A stretch of DNA of 64,000 nucleotides from Prosthecobacter debontii (GTDB taxonomy: Bacteria; Verrucomicrobiota; Verrucomicrobiia; Verrucomicrobiales; Verrucomicrobiaceae), in assembly GCF_900167535.1 (NCBI RefSeq), contig NZ_FUYE01000001.1:62001-126000 (forward strand). The letters are read 5' to 3'. Positions within the stretch are counted from its first letter, which is position 1. Every line of letters starts with the position of its first letter. A model generated the notes under the pieces. It had not been told where the DNA came from, did no database searches, and saw only the letters and a list, made by a program, of their open reading frames with translations. A program made the position numbers and the translations under genes. Positions 39,984 through 46,109 of this stretch are shown here, piece by piece.

Positions 39984-41066
39984 ATGAAACGCAGAATTGC
40001 TATCCTGACCATCGCCGCCAGCCTGTTGACCTCGATGGTTTCCACCGCCTCCGCTCAGACTCTTCGGCTGGTCAATCAGATCAATGAGATCATCCCTAGC
40101 CAAGCCATGGCGGGACAAACGATCACCGTGAAGATTAGCAACACGGAGGTGAACTTTAACAGCATCATCAAAGATTTCCGTTCTCCGAAGCTTCAAGAAA
40201 TCATTGCTCGCTTCCCACGCGTTCCTAGTCTGGAGACGAAAATCTTCTTCACCGGCACCCGCTCAGGCACTTTTGTGGAAGGTCTGAATGTCCGCCGTGT
40301 CGATGCCAGCACCTACACCGTGCAGGTGCCTACGACCGCACGCACTGGGCCGATGAAGCTCCAGCGCGGAATCGCTAGCAGCACCTCCACGGTTCGCTTT
40401 ACGCTGGCGACAGTCGGCTTCACCTTTGTGAACCTGAGTCAGTTCAACGTGGTGAGCTTGAAAGTAGACAATGTCGAGCGCTTGGCTCCAGGCCAAACGA
40501 TTGCCGCTGTGCCGCATACAGCTCCAAATGTGAATGTGCTCGATGTCGGCACGCCTTCCGGTAACCGCACGATTCAAGTGACGATGGGGCGTAACGCTGC
40601 AAGTCCAGTCCTGGTTCTGTTTTTCAATGCCCGTCAAGCACAGACGCTGATCAGCGCCAACGAAGGCTTCCGCAATCCGATCCTGCTGAACCCGATGCTG
40701 GCTGGTGAGTATTTGGCTTCTTCTCCCAATACTGTGTCCGTGGTCGGCACTAGTCGCACGGTGAGCTGGCAGGCCGTCGAAGTCCAGGCTGGCCCAGGCG
40801 GTGCGACGGCTGTGATCCACGGTTTCGACTTCACCTTCAACAGTGCGAATGGAACCACGACCTTCAGGCATTGGATCGGTGACCGCCCGAATGTGGTGGC
40901 TCAGGGCACGGTGTCAGAACCTACCGCAGCCCAGTGGGGGGTGAATCCTGCTGCGATCAACCTGAACCTGCGCCGCAGTAATAACACCGCTTACACGACC
41001 CTGGTTGTCGATCTGTCCAATGCCCGCTTCAGCGCCACCGATGGGTTGAGCTACGAGATGCAGTAA
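39984..41066 (+). CDS. Secreted beta-rich protein, unknown function
   Basis: 360 aa with an excellent signal peptide (RRIAILTIAASLLTSMVSTASAQ). The rest is Thr/Asn/Val-rich and predicted beta-structured, with no motif I recognise and no C-terminal anchor. It ends 20 bases before a strong terminator and has 251 bases of upstream space, so it is probably a single-gene transcript. Likely periplasmic or secreted; no function can be assigned. Confidence 0.78.
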   Translation: MKRRIAILTIAASLLTSMVSTASAQTLRLVNQINEIIPSQAMAGQTITVKISNTEVNFNSIIKDFRSPKLQEIIARFPRVPSLETKIFFTGTRSGTFVEGLNVRRVDASTYTVQVPTTARTGPMKLQRGIASSTSTVRFTLATVGFTFVNLSQFNVVSLKVDNVERLAPGQTIAAVPHTAPNVNVLDVGTPSGNRTIQVTMGRNAASPVLVLFFNARQAQTLISANEGFRNPILLNPMLAGEYLASSPNTVSVVGTSRTVSWQAVEVQAGPGGATAVIHGFDFTFNSANGTTTFRHWIGDRPNVVAQGTVSEPTAAQWGVNPAAINLNLRRSNNTAYTTLVVDLSNARFSATDGLSYEMQ

Positions 41067-41085
41067 TCGGAGCCCATGTTCCAAA

Positions 41086-41131
41086 AACCGCCCAATTTCA
41101 GACAAAGTCTGGGATTGGGCGGTTGGCTTTT
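41086..41131 (+). terminator. Rho-independent terminator
   Basis: AACCGCCCAAT and ATTGGGCGGTT form a perfect 11-bp stem, with an inner CAGAC/GTCTG pair in the loop, followed by GGCTTTT. It closes the secreted-protein gene. Confidence 0.88.
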
Positions 41132-41418
41132 GGTTGGGACGCTTCAGTGAAGAGACTCTGTTGAGACTGGTCGGTTTGTTTTATCTCGCAACACGACGGA
41201 ATTTTTTTGCCCTCTAGCGCGATTTTAATTTTTAACCAGCGAGTCATGGTGTCGAAGGGGTTTGTTGCCTTCAAAACCGAGATTCTGACGACAGGATAAG
41301 ACCAGAATTTCTTCTTTTTAAACGCATAGAGCGAGTGAGTTTTCCTAGTGTAAAGTGGGTTTAAAGTCTGAGGTATTCTTGGGTTGAACACCCCGATTTA
41401 CGAGGGAGAACCTCTTCC
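41132..41418. other. Intergenic region upstream of gltB
   Basis: About 290 bases with AT-rich patches around 41200-41240 and 41310-41380 and no credible frame. It would be the place for enhancer sites of a sigma-54 activator, but I could not pick out a convincing NtrC-type dyad by eye. Confidence 0.5.
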
Positions 41419-41434
41419 TGGCATTCTCCTTGCT
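41419..41434 (+). promoter_or_regulatory. Sigma-54 (-24/-12) promoter of gltB
   Basis: TGGCAT-TCTCC-TTGCT matches the consensus TGGCAC-N5-TTGCW at all but one position, with exact spacing between the GG and GC elements. Transcription would begin near 41445, leaving a leader of about 70 bases before the gltB ATG. Nitrogen genes are classic sigma-54 targets, which supports the call. Confidence 0.7.
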
Positions 41435-41466
41435 TGCGGATTTCTTCCGAAGGTACAAACTACCCG

Positions 41467-41506
41467 CCCCTCCGACCAGGCGGTTGTCGTCTGGTGGAGG
41501 GGTTTT
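41467..41506 (+). promoter_or_regulatory. Terminator-like hairpin in the gltB leader
   Basis: CCCCTCCGACCAG (41467-41479) pairs with CTGGTGGAGGGG (41491-41502), 12 pairs with one bulged G, and TTTT follows at once. The descending arm contains GGAGGGG, the only purine-rich tract before the ATG at 41514, so the hairpin would also hide the ribosome binding site. It could act by attenuation, by translation control, or both. Confidence 0.65.
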
Positions 41507-41513
41507 CTGCCCC

Positions 41514-44500
41514 ATGAAACACCCATTCTACGACCAGGATATCCCCAATGAAGGCTCGCTCCACCGCATGGATTTGGAACGCGACGCGTGTGGCGTCGGC
41601 TTTGTGGCGAATATTCATGGTAAACGTAGTCGTGACATTTTAGAGATGGCCATCTGCGGCGTCTGCAACGTGCAGCACCGTGGAGCTGTGGACGCTGACC
41701 GCGTGACAGGTGACGGCGCAGGCGTGCTGACCCAGATCCCCCACAAAGTGCTGATGCCCGAAGTGGAAAAAATGGGTCACAAGCTGGAGCATGAGATGGA
41801 TCTGGCCGTGGGCGTGTTTTTCCTGCCGAACGATGAGACCCAGCGTCTGAAGATCCAGCTCGTGGCTGAGGGTATCCTGCGTAACCGCGACATCAAAGTC
41901 CTCGGCTGGCGCGATGTGCCGGTGAACCCGAATGAGCTGGGGGAAAAAGCCCGCCGCACCATGCCCTTCATCCAGCACCTCTTCATGGAGCGTCCTGAAG
42001 GCATGGATGACAACTCCTTCGAGCGTCAGCTCTACCTTGTGCGTCGTGAGCTGCGTATCAAGGCGAAGGAAGCGAAGCTGGCAGAGTTCTACATCGCCTC
42101 GATGTCGCACCGGACGATCGTTTACAAGGCGCTGCTGTTGCCTTCCTCCTTGGAGAAGTTTTACACGGACCTCCAGAGCGATGATTATGAGACCTCTCTG
42201 GCGCTCTTCCACCAGCGTTTCTCCACGAATACCTTCCCGACCTGGGCGCTGAGCCATCCTTTCCGCATGCTGGCGCACAACGGGGAAATCAACACCGTGC
42301 GTGGCAACCGTAACTGGCTCTCCAGCCGCGCCAGCGACTTCGAGCACGAAGTGTGGGACGGTGAAGAGTGGCTGCTGAAAGATCTGGTGGATGCCAACAG
42401 CTCGGACTCCGCCAGCCTCGACCAAGCCCTGGAACTTTTGGTGCTCAGTGGTCGCTCCCTCACTCATGCCATGGGTATGCTGGTGCCGAGCGCTTATGGC
42501 ATCGATCCGACAACCTCTGCTGACCTGAAGGCTTTCTACGAGTATCACGAGTGCTTTAGCGAGCCTTGGGATGGTCCTGCCGCCATGGTTTTGACCAACG
42601 GCCTTAGCGTGGTGGCCAGCCTGGACCGTAACGGTCTGCGCCCAAGCCGCTGGAAGTTGACCGAAGATGGTGTCTTTGCCCTCGGATCTGAAGTGGGCAT
42701 CATCGCTATTGATGACGCAAAAGTGCTCAAGAAAGGCCGTCTGGCTCCAGGTGAAATGCTGGAGGTTGATATCTTGAAGGGCAAAGTCCGCTTCAATGAA
42801 GAGATCAAAACGGCCCTGGCTAGCCGCCAACCCTATGGCGAATGGCTGAGCAGCCGGAAGAATCTGACGGCACAGTCTCCCCAGACTCCCAAGGAAGAAC
42901 TGGACATCCTTTCACTGTCTCAGCGTCAGGCTGCTTATGGTTGGACGAAGGAAGAGATCGATTTCTCGCTCGTGCCCATGCTGCAGAAAGGTGAGGAAGG
43001 CATCTACTCCATGGGGGACGATGCATCTCTCTCCATCTTGAGCACTCGCCCGCGCCTGTTGACGACCTACTTCAAGCAGCTCTTCGCCCAGGTGACTAAC
43101 CCACCGATCGACCCGATCCGTGAGCGTGCCGTGATGAGCCTGGACGTAGTGCTCGGCTGGCAGCGAAACTGGTTAGGCGAAACGCCTGAGCACGCCAGTG
43201 TGGTGCATCTGACCTCGCCGTTCTTGTTTGAGAATGAGCTGTCTGACATCAAAGCTCTGCCTAACTTCCCCCATCGCGTTCTGGATACCACTTGGCCGAT
43301 CGCTGAAGGCCCTGCTGGGATGAAGAAGGCCCTGGATCGCCTTTGCTATGAGGCTGAGGCGGCCGTGAATGATGAAGTTCGCATCCTGATCCTCAGCGAC
43401 CGTGCGGTGGACGAAGGTCGTGCGATCATCCCGGCTCTGTTGGCGACTGGTGCGGTGCACCATCACCTAAATCGGAAGCAGGTGCGCATGCGTTTGAGCC
43501 TCGTGGTGGATACCGGTGAAGCCCGGGATACTCACCAGATGGCTTGCTTGTTCGGCTTTGGTGCCAGCGCCGTTTGCCCTTACCTGACCTTCGATACCAT
43601 CCAGGAAGTGCTGGAGAATGACAAGACGGCTCGCAAGCCCGTGCTTGAAGGGGTGGAATATGGCAAGGCTCTGACCAACTTCCGCAAATCTCTGGAAAAG
43701 GGTGTGCTGAAGATCATGAGCAAGATGGGGATTTCCGTCCTCAGCAGCTACACGGGTGCGCAGATCTTTGAAGCTGTCGGTATCGGCAGTGATGTCATGA
43801 CCTATGCCTTCACTGGCACGCCCAGCCAGATTGAGGGGATCGGATTCACCGAAATCGCTGAAGAAGCCCTGGCCCGCCACGCACTCGGTTTTGCCCAGCC
43901 TGTGCCAACGCAGGAAGAAGCCGCGAGCAATGTGGACCTCGGTGACCCTGGTTACTACCGCCCACGTCAGAAAGGTGAGATGCACGCCGTCACCGGTCCG
44001 GTGATCAAGAACTTCCACACGTTCGTGAAGAGCGGCAGCCCCGAAGACTACAGCAAGTATGTCGAGGCTCAGTTGCAGAACAGCCCTGTGGCATTGAAGG
44101 ACCTGCTGGACTTTGTGCCGAGCGGTGATGGTCCGATTCCGATTGATGAAGTCGAGCCGATCGAAGACATCCGCGTCCGTTTCACGACGGCAGCCATGTC
44201 TCTGGGGGCCATCAGCCCTGAGGCTCACGAAGCTCTGGCCATCGCCATGAACCGTATCGGCGGTAAGTCGGACTCTGGCGAAGGCGGTGAAGATCCAAAG
44301 CGCTTTAAGCCGTATGAGAACGGCGACTGGGCGAACTCCAAGATCAAGCAGGTGGCCTCCGGACGTTTCGGCGTCACGGCTGAATACCTGGCCAATGCGT
44401 GGGAGCTGGAAATCAAAATGGCTCAGGGAGCCAAGCCGGGTGAAGGTGGTCAGCTGCCAGCCATGAAGGTGAACCGCATGATCGCTCGTCTGCGTAACAC

Positions 44501-46109
44501 CACCCCTGGCGTCATGCTCATCAGCCCGCCTCCGCACCACGATATTTACTCCATCGAGGACTTGGCTCAGCTCATTCATGACTTGAAGGAAGCGAACCCT
44601 CGTGCTCGCGTTTGTGTGAAGCTCGTTGCAGAGTCAGGCGTCGGCACGGTGGCCGCTGGTGTGGCTAAGGCCAATGCGGACATCATCCTGGTCTCCGGAC
44701 ATGATGGTGGCACTGGTGCTAGCCCGCTGAGCTCCATCAAGCATGCTGGCCTGCCTTGGGAGCTCGGTTTGGCCGAGACCCAGCAGGTGCTTATGCTCAA
44801 TGGTCTGCGTGAGCGCGTGACGCTGCGCACGGACGGTGGTTTGCGCAATGGACGTGACATCGCCATCGCCGCGATGCTCGGTGCTGAGGAGTTTAACTTC
44901 GGCACCATCGCCCTGATCGCTCTGGGTTGTGTGTATGTGCGTCAGTGCCACTTGAACAACTGCCCGGTCGGCGTTGCGACGACCGATCCGAAGTTCCGCT
45001 CCAAGTTCAAAGGCAAGCCTGAGCATGTCGTGAACTTCTTCAATGGGGTTGCCCAAGAAGTGCGTGAGATCATGGCTCAGCTTGGCGTGTCCAAAATGAA
45101 TGACCTGATTGGACGCCCTGAGTTCCTGCGTCAGCGCGAGGTTCCAGGCCACAAGAAAGCGAACATGATCAACCTCAGTCGCGTGCTGAAGGACGTGGGT
45201 AAGGATCTCGGTCAAGACGCACCAAGGATCTGTCTGATGAACCAGAATGACGGTCTCGACCAGCACCCGCTGGATGACCGCCTCATTCAGGATGCTCAAT
45301 TCGCCATCAGCGATAAGCGCAAGGTCAAGCCGGTCCGCTACAAGATCAAAAACACCTTCCGTAACATCGGCACCAAGCTCAGCGGTGAGATTGCCTTCCA
45401 TCACGGTAATCATGGTCTGCCTGATGGCAGCGTGGACGTCACCTGTGAGGGTAGTGCTGGCCAGAGCTTTGGCACCTTCCTCTGCGGCGGCGTGAAGCTG
45501 ACTCTCATCGGTGAAGGCAACGACTACGTCGGTAAGGGCCTTTGCGGGGGTGAGATCATCCTCAAACCAAGCCCGAGACTGAACCCCGCCTGCAAGAGCT
45601 GGGAAAACAGCATCATGGGCAACACGGTGATGTATGGAGCTACCAGCGGACGCCTGTTCGCGGCAGGTCGTGCGGGTGAGCGCTTCTGTGTGCGTAACTC
45701 AGGAGCGACGGCCGTCGTCGAGGGCATTGGCGACCACGGTTGTGAATACATGACTGGTGGCGTCGTGGCCGTGCTCGGGTCCTTTGGCAAAAACCTCGGC
45801 GCCGGTATGAGTGGCGGCGTGGCTTACCTCTTGGATGAGGCAGGCGACTTCGATAAGCTGCACAACCCCGAGATGATCAAAGGTGAAAAGCTCAGCGACC
45901 CTGAAGACATCAATCAGCTCAAGAAGTTGATCAGTGATCACCTCGAGAAGACCGAAAGCCTGCGTGCCAAGGACATCTTGGAAAACTGGGCCTCTTTCGA
46001 GCCGCTCTTTGTCAAGGTCACCAGCAAAGCCGAGCCTGTGCAAGTGCCCGCTGAAGCCGAGGAAGATTCGGCGGGGCAGCCCCAGCCTCCACTGGTGAAG
46101 AATGACTGA
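41514..46109 (+). CDS. gltB: Glutamate synthase large subunit
   Basis: 1,531 aa from ATG 41514; the frame is open upstream but only into the leader hairpin. The class II glutaminase domain starts after a 25-residue propeptide, leaving Cys26 of ERDACGVGF as N-terminal nucleophile. The FMN/synthase domain follows, with the 3Fe-4S cluster in CVYVRQCHLNNCPVGVAT near residue 1140, then a C-terminal GxGxG beta-helix (about 1285-1450). The enzyme makes glutamate from glutamine and 2-oxoglutarate. Its small partner, gltD, is not adjacent and the gene ends at its own terminator, so the subunit must be encoded elsewhere or the enzyme is of a ferredoxin-using type. The last 60 residues are acidic and Pro-rich. 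Confidence 0.96.
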   Translation: MKHPFYDQDIPNEGSLHRMDLERDACGVGFVANIHGKRSRDILEMAICGVCNVQHRGAVDADRVTGDGAGVLTQIPHKVLMPEVEKMGHKLEHEMDLAVGVFFLPNDETQRLKIQLVAEGILRNRDIKVLGWRDVPVNPNELGEKARRTMPFIQHLFMERPEGMDDNSFERQLYLVRRELRIKAKEAKLAEFYIASMSHRTIVYKALLLPSSLEKFYTDLQSDDYETSLALFHQRFSTNTFPTWALSHPFRMLAHNGEINTVRGNRNWLSSRASDFEHEVWDGEEWLLKDLVDANSSDSASLDQALELLVLSGRSLTHAMGMLVPSAYGIDPTTSADLKAFYEYHECFSEPWDGPAAMVLTNGLSVVASLDRNGLRPSRWKLTEDGVFALGSEVGIIAIDDAKVLKKGRLAPGEMLEVDILKGKVRFNEEIKTALASRQPYGEWLSSRKNLTAQSPQTPKEELDILSLSQRQAAYGWTKEEIDFSLVPMLQKGEEGIYSMGDDASLSILSTRPRLLTTYFKQLFAQVTNPPIDPIRERAVMSLDVVLGWQRNWLGETPEHASVVHLTSPFLFENELSDIKALPNFPHRVLDTTWPIAEGPAGMKKALDRLCYEAEAAVNDEVRILILSDRAVDEGRAIIPALLATGAVHHHLNRKQVRMRLSLVVDTGEARDTHQMACLFGFGASAVCPYLTFDTIQEVLENDKTARKPVLEGVEYGKALTNFRKSLEKGVLKIMSKMGISVLSSYTGAQIFEAVGIGSDVMTYAFTGTPSQIEGIGFTEIAEEALARHALGFAQPVPTQEEAASNVDLGDPGYYRPRQKGEMHAVTGPVIKNFHTFVKSGSPEDYSKYVEAQLQNSPVALKDLLDFVPSGDGPIPIDEVEPIEDIRVRFTTAAMSLGAISPEAHEALAIAMNRIGGKSDSGEGGEDPKRFKPYENGDWANSKIKQVASGRFGVTAEYLANAWELEIKMAQGAKPGEGGQLPAMKVNRMIARLRNTTPGVMLISPPPHHDIYSIEDLAQLIHDLKEANPRARVCVKLVAESGVGTVAAGVAKANADIILVSGHDGGTGASPLSSIKHAGLPWELGLAETQQVLMLNGLRERVTLRTDGGLRNGRDIAIAAMLGAEEFNFGTIALIALGCVYVRQCHLNNCPVGVATTDPKFRSKFKGKPEHVVNFFNGVAQEVREIMAQLGVSKMNDLIGRPEFLRQREVPGHKKANMINLSRVLKDVGKDLGQDAPRICLMNQNDGLDQHPLDDRLIQDAQFAISDKRKVKPVRYKIKNTFRNIGTKLSGEIAFHHGNHGLPDGSVDVTCEGSAGQSFGTFLCGGVKLTLIGEGNDYVGKGLCGGEIILKPSPRLNPACKSWENSIMGNTVMYGATSGRLFAAGRAGERFCVRNSGATAVVEGIGDHGCEYMTGGVVAVLGSFGKNLGAGMSGGVAYLLDEAGDFDKLHNPEMIKGEKLSDPEDINQLKKLISDHLEKTESLRAKDILENWASFEPLFVKVTSKAEPVQVPAEAEEDSAGQPQPPLVKND

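Follow-up and report, generated by a model that had tools for sequence, protein, structure and literature searches.

The window, that is, the whole stretch of 64,000 nucleotides of Prosthecobacter debontii DNA analysed here, harbors a gene for the large subunit of glutamate synthase, gltB, preceded by a region in which the following features were recognized or predicted (positions are those of the window):

41086 to 41124, + strand: terminator-like hairpin, 3' of the upstream gene 39984-41066 and before the predicted gltB promoter
41419 to 41434, + strand: predicted sigma-54 -24/-12 promoter, with TGGCAT at 41419-41424, a 5-bp gap and TTGCT at 41430-41434
41445, + strand: predicted transcription start (+1), placed 12 nt past the C of the -12 GC from the usual sigma-54 geometry
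41452 to 41464, + strand: small 4-bp hairpin (GGUA-CAAAC-UACC) in the predicted fold, close to the 5' end expected for the transcript
41466 to 41503, + strand: strong leader hairpin of 16 bp, from minimum free energy (MFE) folding, ending 10 nt before the gltB ATG
41514 to 46109, + strand: gltB, glutamate synthase large subunit, 1531 aa (ATG at 41514, stop at 46109), from Pfam, NCBIfam and solved-structure matches

The encoded protein displays the Pfam domains GATase_2, Glu_syn_central, Glu_synthase and GXGXG, scores 1719 bits against the NCBIfam equivalog of the large subunit (cut-off 1047), and is aligned over nearly its full length by solved glutamate synthase chains. The gene upstream of it encodes a protein without Pfam family; as the terminator-like hairpin lies beyond the end of this gene at 41066, gltB has an intergenic region of its own. 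No nitrogen gene was found among the eight neighbouring proteins scanned. Moreover, PF14691, which we take to mark the small subunit, GltD, matched 9 of 14 control genomes and gave no match in the P. debontii genome, so that the electron-donating partner of GltB is not evident.

In the intergenic region, a pattern scan of the window against the sigma-54 consensus TGGCACN5TTGCW retrieved TGGCATTCTCCTTGCT on the + strand at 41419-41434, which confirms the site with exact spacing and one mismatch that a preliminary description of this DNA had placed there. The -24 element ends in T instead of C, which is the single mismatch; both cores, GG (-24) and GC (-12), are intact and separated by the required 10 bp, and the site starts 95 bp and ends 79 bp upstream of the gltB ATG.

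Conservation of the site upstream of gltB

Taken singly, this match is no better than chance. The window contains six matches with at most one mismatch where 3.12 are expected, a number reached by 9 of 100 shuffles, and the genome-wide search for TTGGCACN5TTGCT with at most one mismatch showed no enrichment, with 31 matches against 43 for a reversed-pattern control. Such chance-level counts, in the window as in the genome, are what speaks for a fortuitous match in an intergenic stretch devoid of promoter function. What makes the gltB site convincing is its conservation in orthologs, not the single match.

A search of 68 genomes of the family returned 34 gltB orthologs (at least 69% identity over the N-terminal part, the window's own included), of which 31, again with the window's own, were examined as loci for the promoter comparison. 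The GG-N10-GC core is kept with at most two mismatches in 25 of these 31 orthologs and with at most three in 30, the one that fails the three-mismatch filter being L159. The distance of the sites from the ATG is between -90 and -113; L171 is the exception, with its site at -236 and an assembly gap in between. As controls, we used exact dinucleotide shuffles and reverse strands of the region -200 to -25: two or fewer mismatches were reached by 3.5% of the shuffles and by none of the 31 reverse strands, three or fewer by 12.9% and by 6 of 31, so that the five orthologs with three mismatches stand at a level that the controls also attain and are supported mainly by the position of their sites. 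The 31 orthologs are not all independent, for the same site occurs within L167-L169, in L161 and L162, and in L150 and L152. In the 30 accepted sites, a C after the GG, a T before the GC and a T after it are each present 30 times out of 30, a regularity that the mismatch filter itself favours. Conservation in relatives, which the preliminary description had proposed as a check, thus speaks for the site.

The reading frames found upstream of gltB vary between lineages, and the putative promoter has therefore stayed with gltB while its neighbours changed. A comparison of seven close genomes adds to this picture: the majority fraction per 15-bp block ranges from 0.26 to 0.61 between -330 and -106 (the two lowest and farthest blocks containing alignment-end gaps) and from 0.78 to 1.00 between -105 and the ATG, the conservation footprint starting, in these genomes, at the predicted -24 element. 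That the place and the core of the site are kept in orthologs despite different upstream genes, together with this sharp footprint, makes a chance match very improbable indeed; ortholog conservation, footprint and shuffle controls have largely refuted it already.

In several loci (L153-L155, L157, L158 and L014; L007-L009 are the same genes as L157, L155 and L158), a divergent gene, by eye dnaK, shares the intergenic region of gltB. There, a TTGGCA..TGCCAA dyad near dnaK resembles, by eye, a -24/-12 site on the dnaK strand with about two mismatches; a sigma-54 survey reports chaperone genes as enriched in other phyla (PMC12316311).

Beyond the family, only one of nine gltB relatives has a match with at most two mismatches within -200 to -40 (L019, at -103 from the match start); L017 and L018 have three-mismatch matches in the same interval, and L022 a two-mismatch match at -228. 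The gltB site is hence mainly a family trait. The family genomes also contain a second, distant gltB type (L244-L273; roughly 33-43% identity), and many of its loci, albeit not all, show a weaker GG-N10-GC core. Directly downstream of this core, a TTGATT-N17-TAAAT-like, sigma-70-like pair can be discerned by eye at many of them, and this second type suggests two overlapping promoters.

Sites at ammonium transporter and glutamine synthetase genes

The exact sequence TTGGCACN5TTGCT occurs at two sites only in the P. debontii genome, both near the starts of ammonium transporter (amt) genes (on C5 and C12), of which the genome encodes three. Both exact sites fall inside the longest open reading frame call, one about 100 nt and the other 34 nt from where it begins, and we therefore assume that translation presumably begins at a later ATG. 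A sequence with one mismatch, TTGGCACGATTCTTGGT (L183, about 2861-2877), is found downstream of the third amt gene, ahead of a small open reading frame. Inspection by eye of the open reading frames of 85-140 aa that surround the three amt genes showed no PII-like frame. The sole glutamine synthetase match of the genome is GlnII-like, with a score of 369 bits that lies below the cut-off of 500, and TGGCATAAACCATGCT is found upstream of it.

The same type of site recurs in the family. All 30 GlnII loci, that of P. debontii included, have a core match with at most two mismatches no farther than 400 bp upstream of the match (5.5% of shuffles, 0 of 30 reverse strands), and a core match with no more than one mismatch lies within 600 bp upstream in 24 of 29 amt loci (1.2% of shuffles, 0 of 29 reverse strands), these 30 and 29 loci being the best-scoring among the matches listed and some of the stretches including coding sequence. 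Since this type of site is also found at amt and glutamine synthetase genes, the nitrogen link of gltB is supported, and control by nitrogen status, which had been put forward as probable from the gltB site, gains weight from these genes, the response itself being inferred.

These sites also bear on the possibility that the conserved block upstream of gltB serves another DNA-binding protein as operator, or belongs to a sigma-70-type promoter (e.g., with a TTGC-type -35 element and a weak -10 element downstream). Such a reading can invoke the dyad TTGGCA-N11-TGCCAA that spans the site in some orthologs (L145, L146), the weak TTGC..-N16/17-TAGTTT-like pair that, by eye, follows it in the L165-L170 group, and the pair noted above downstream of the core at second-type gltB loci. 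However, the dyad is not kept across orthologs, whereas the GG and GC at 10 bp are; the same core is found at GlnII and amt genes; and a strict consensus scan found no sigma-70-like match on the + strand of 41050-41650. We thus regard this alternative as quite improbable; the stretch upstream of gltB is very likely a genuine sigma-54 promoter, one of the type also present at the amt and GlnII genes in relatives.

RpoN, candidate activators and the proposed nitrogen signal

The presence of rpoN, another check that had been proposed, was verified: the P. debontii genome encodes two rpoN genes (L001 and L002, equal to L179 and L174), each with the activator-interacting (AID), core-binding (CBD) and DNA-binding (DBD) domains. 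In the family, at least one rpoN match was obtained in 63 of 68 genomes, the five genomes without a match being draft assemblies of 52-93% completeness. The second rpoN lies near a response-regulator activator and a histidine kinase, and a second full-length copy is found in a few close relatives only (G018, G033, G068 and G076).

As for enhancer-binding proteins, the AAA+ family PF00158 has 15 matches in the genome, seven of them long; weak matches to this family are unspecific, as all 14 control genomes give matches. Six of the seven long proteins are response-regulator types with receiver domains and one is RtcR. The genome thus encodes at least seven activators, a count that leaves aside the shorter matches, including two pieces in one C18 frame. 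As to NtrC-like regulators, none of the seven reaches the cut-off of the ntrC model TIGR01818 (558.6 bits), the best, L172, scoring 450.4 bits and having no HTH_8 match. Histidine kinase domains are encoded in genes beside some of the activators, none of them assigned as NtrB. Upstream of -105, no conserved enhancer block was found in the seven close genomes, and exact 5-mer dyads were shared by six of 86 upstream regions at most, the most frequent being TGGCA-N7-TGCCA (six regions, the dnaK-adjacent group) and T5/A5 (six regions).

On the basis of these observations, RNA polymerase carrying RpoN would bind TGGCAT-N5-TTGCT, and an enhancer-binding activator would open the complex in an ATP-dependent manner, transcription beginning near 41445 and yielding a leader of about 69 nt. 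Together with the amt and GlnII-type glutamine synthetase genes, gltB would belong to a family-wide sigma-54 regulon of ammonium assimilation, and its expression would most likely track nitrogen status. The control by RpoN and an enhancer-binding protein claimed in the preliminary description is supported by the rpoN genes, the activator genes and the conserved site; the start site, the RpoN dependence, the identity of the activator and the nitrogen signal are inferred.

It is also conceivable that the promoter is sigma-54-dependent while gltB is independent of nitrogen status, being served by another activator or always on. In line with this, none of the activators can be clearly assigned as NtrC, the upstream comparisons revealed no conserved enhancer, and gltB is near constant in the verrucomicrobial methanotroph Methylacidiphilum: one study describes annotated NtrB and NtrC and a gltB equally expressed in all conditions (PMC5623727), and an earlier table gives gltB values of 1343, 1360 and 1355 (PMC3404531). 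Methylacidiphilum is, however, a distant lineage, and gltB shares its type of site with amt and GlnII genes, which nitrogen regulons usually include. We therefore consider a gltB indifferent to nitrogen as rather unlikely and retain the nitrogen-responsive reading.

Sigma-54 control of nitrogen genes is best known from Pseudomonadota, and gltBD of E. coli is mainly controlled by Lrp. The enteric NtrC/RpoN nitrogen regulon includes, in the portion of the source considered, glnAntrBC and glnK-amtB (PMC3224663). The P. debontii system resembles it in that genes for ammonium transporters and glutamine synthetase are preceded by sigma-54 sites, but differs from it in that gltB is included, that the synthetase is GlnII-like, and that no NtrC model match lies above the cut-off. 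For glutamate synthase under sigma-54, the one precedent that we found is a prediction in Geobacter sulfurreducens, where the relevant part of the source places a sigma-54 promoter upstream of the GOGAT operon GSU1235-GSU1239 and reports the RpoN promoter of glnB-glnA as mapped by primer extension (PMC2725144). There, as here, a predicted sigma-54 promoter stands ahead of glutamate synthase; Geobacter, on the other hand, belongs to another phylum and has its GOGAT genes in an operon, in contrast to the P. debontii gltB with its leader hairpin and no nitrogen gene among the eight neighbours scanned.

A cross-phylum survey likewise extends sigma-54 control beyond Pseudomonadota and names the Verrucomicrobiota class Opitutia, for motility (PMC12316311). 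In a term search of its main text, gltB, glutamate synthase and ammonium transporter do not occur, nor do gltB and glutamate synthase in the main text of a further sigma-54 survey (PMC3162934), and no paper among the matches listed from the open-licence literature deals with sigma-54 control of gltB in Verrucomicrobiota. The gltB promoter is thus a familiar kind of control in a new case from a little-studied group, to which the present analysis adds the regulon view and a leader hairpin.

The leader hairpin and the proposed regulon

The predicted fold of 41440-41530 has a free energy of -33.8 kcal/mol (z -3.1), a stability equalled by 1 of 200 shuffles, and the 10-nt linker between its strong hairpin and the ATG is pyrimidine-rich. 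Of the 31 orthologs, 20 have an MFE hairpin whose end falls 9-14 nt ahead of the ATG, and 16 different outer stems occur among them; in this count, L160 was excluded by hand and 10 further loci fall outside the 9-14 nt filter, and the arms are taken from the MFE fold of each sequence, so that pairing is partly obtained by construction. L144, L147 and L149 are also predicted to form the small hairpin at 41452-41464, which is not general.

As a set, the gltB leaders are more structured than those of GlnII: 17 of 30 (60 nt before the ATG) exceed their shuffles in stability with a z below -2, against 4 of 29 for GlnII, and among the controls this holds for 3 of 30 upstream and none of 31 coding stretches. 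In an alignment of eight sequences with one gap, 17 pairs are formed, of which two have both sides changed in one sequence and four are broken in one or two. RNAalifold on a 24-sequence MAFFT alignment did not recover the hairpin (3 pairs, -1.7 kcal/mol), a negative result that we read as a misalignment of stems that differ in length. Across the whole window, no Rfam family reached its gathering score, and the three sub-threshold matches in 41000-41700, to eukaryotic families with E values of 0.49-1.4, were dismissed as chance.

Several roles were considered for this hairpin. An attenuator was rejected as its general role, a UUUU at the stem end being present in just 10 of the 20 hairpin-bearing orthologs; a terminator scan of the + strand did not list the hairpin at 41466-41503. 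Sequestration of the Shine-Dalgarno sequence was discarded as a shared feature, the 3' arm containing GGAGG in the window and GAUGUGGC or GCGCGG in other lineages. A reading of the leader dyad as a DNA operator is disfavoured by arm sequences that vary between lineages, and these differing arms still fold. We take the leader hairpin as a probable RNA element, which probably acts after transcription start, on RNA stability or translation. A bolder proposal, to which we give little credence, would be that gltB is controlled twice in the family, by the sigma-54 nitrogen promoter and by a leader RNA element that responds to a nitrogen metabolite or an RNA-binding protein and thereby gates translation or the stability of the mRNA.

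Overall, judging from sequence comparisons, we hold it to be highly likely that 41419-41434 is a sigma-54 promoter of gltB, that it belongs to a nitrogen-responsive regulon of ammonium assimilation, and that it is followed by a partly conserved leader hairpin. One type of promoter would then mark the genes for ammonium uptake, glutamine synthesis and glutamate synthesis across an apparent family of Verrucomicrobiota, which provides a defined regulon for experiments in a group whose regulation has been little studied, while the leader hairpin would constitute a separate RNA element that is itself open to testing.
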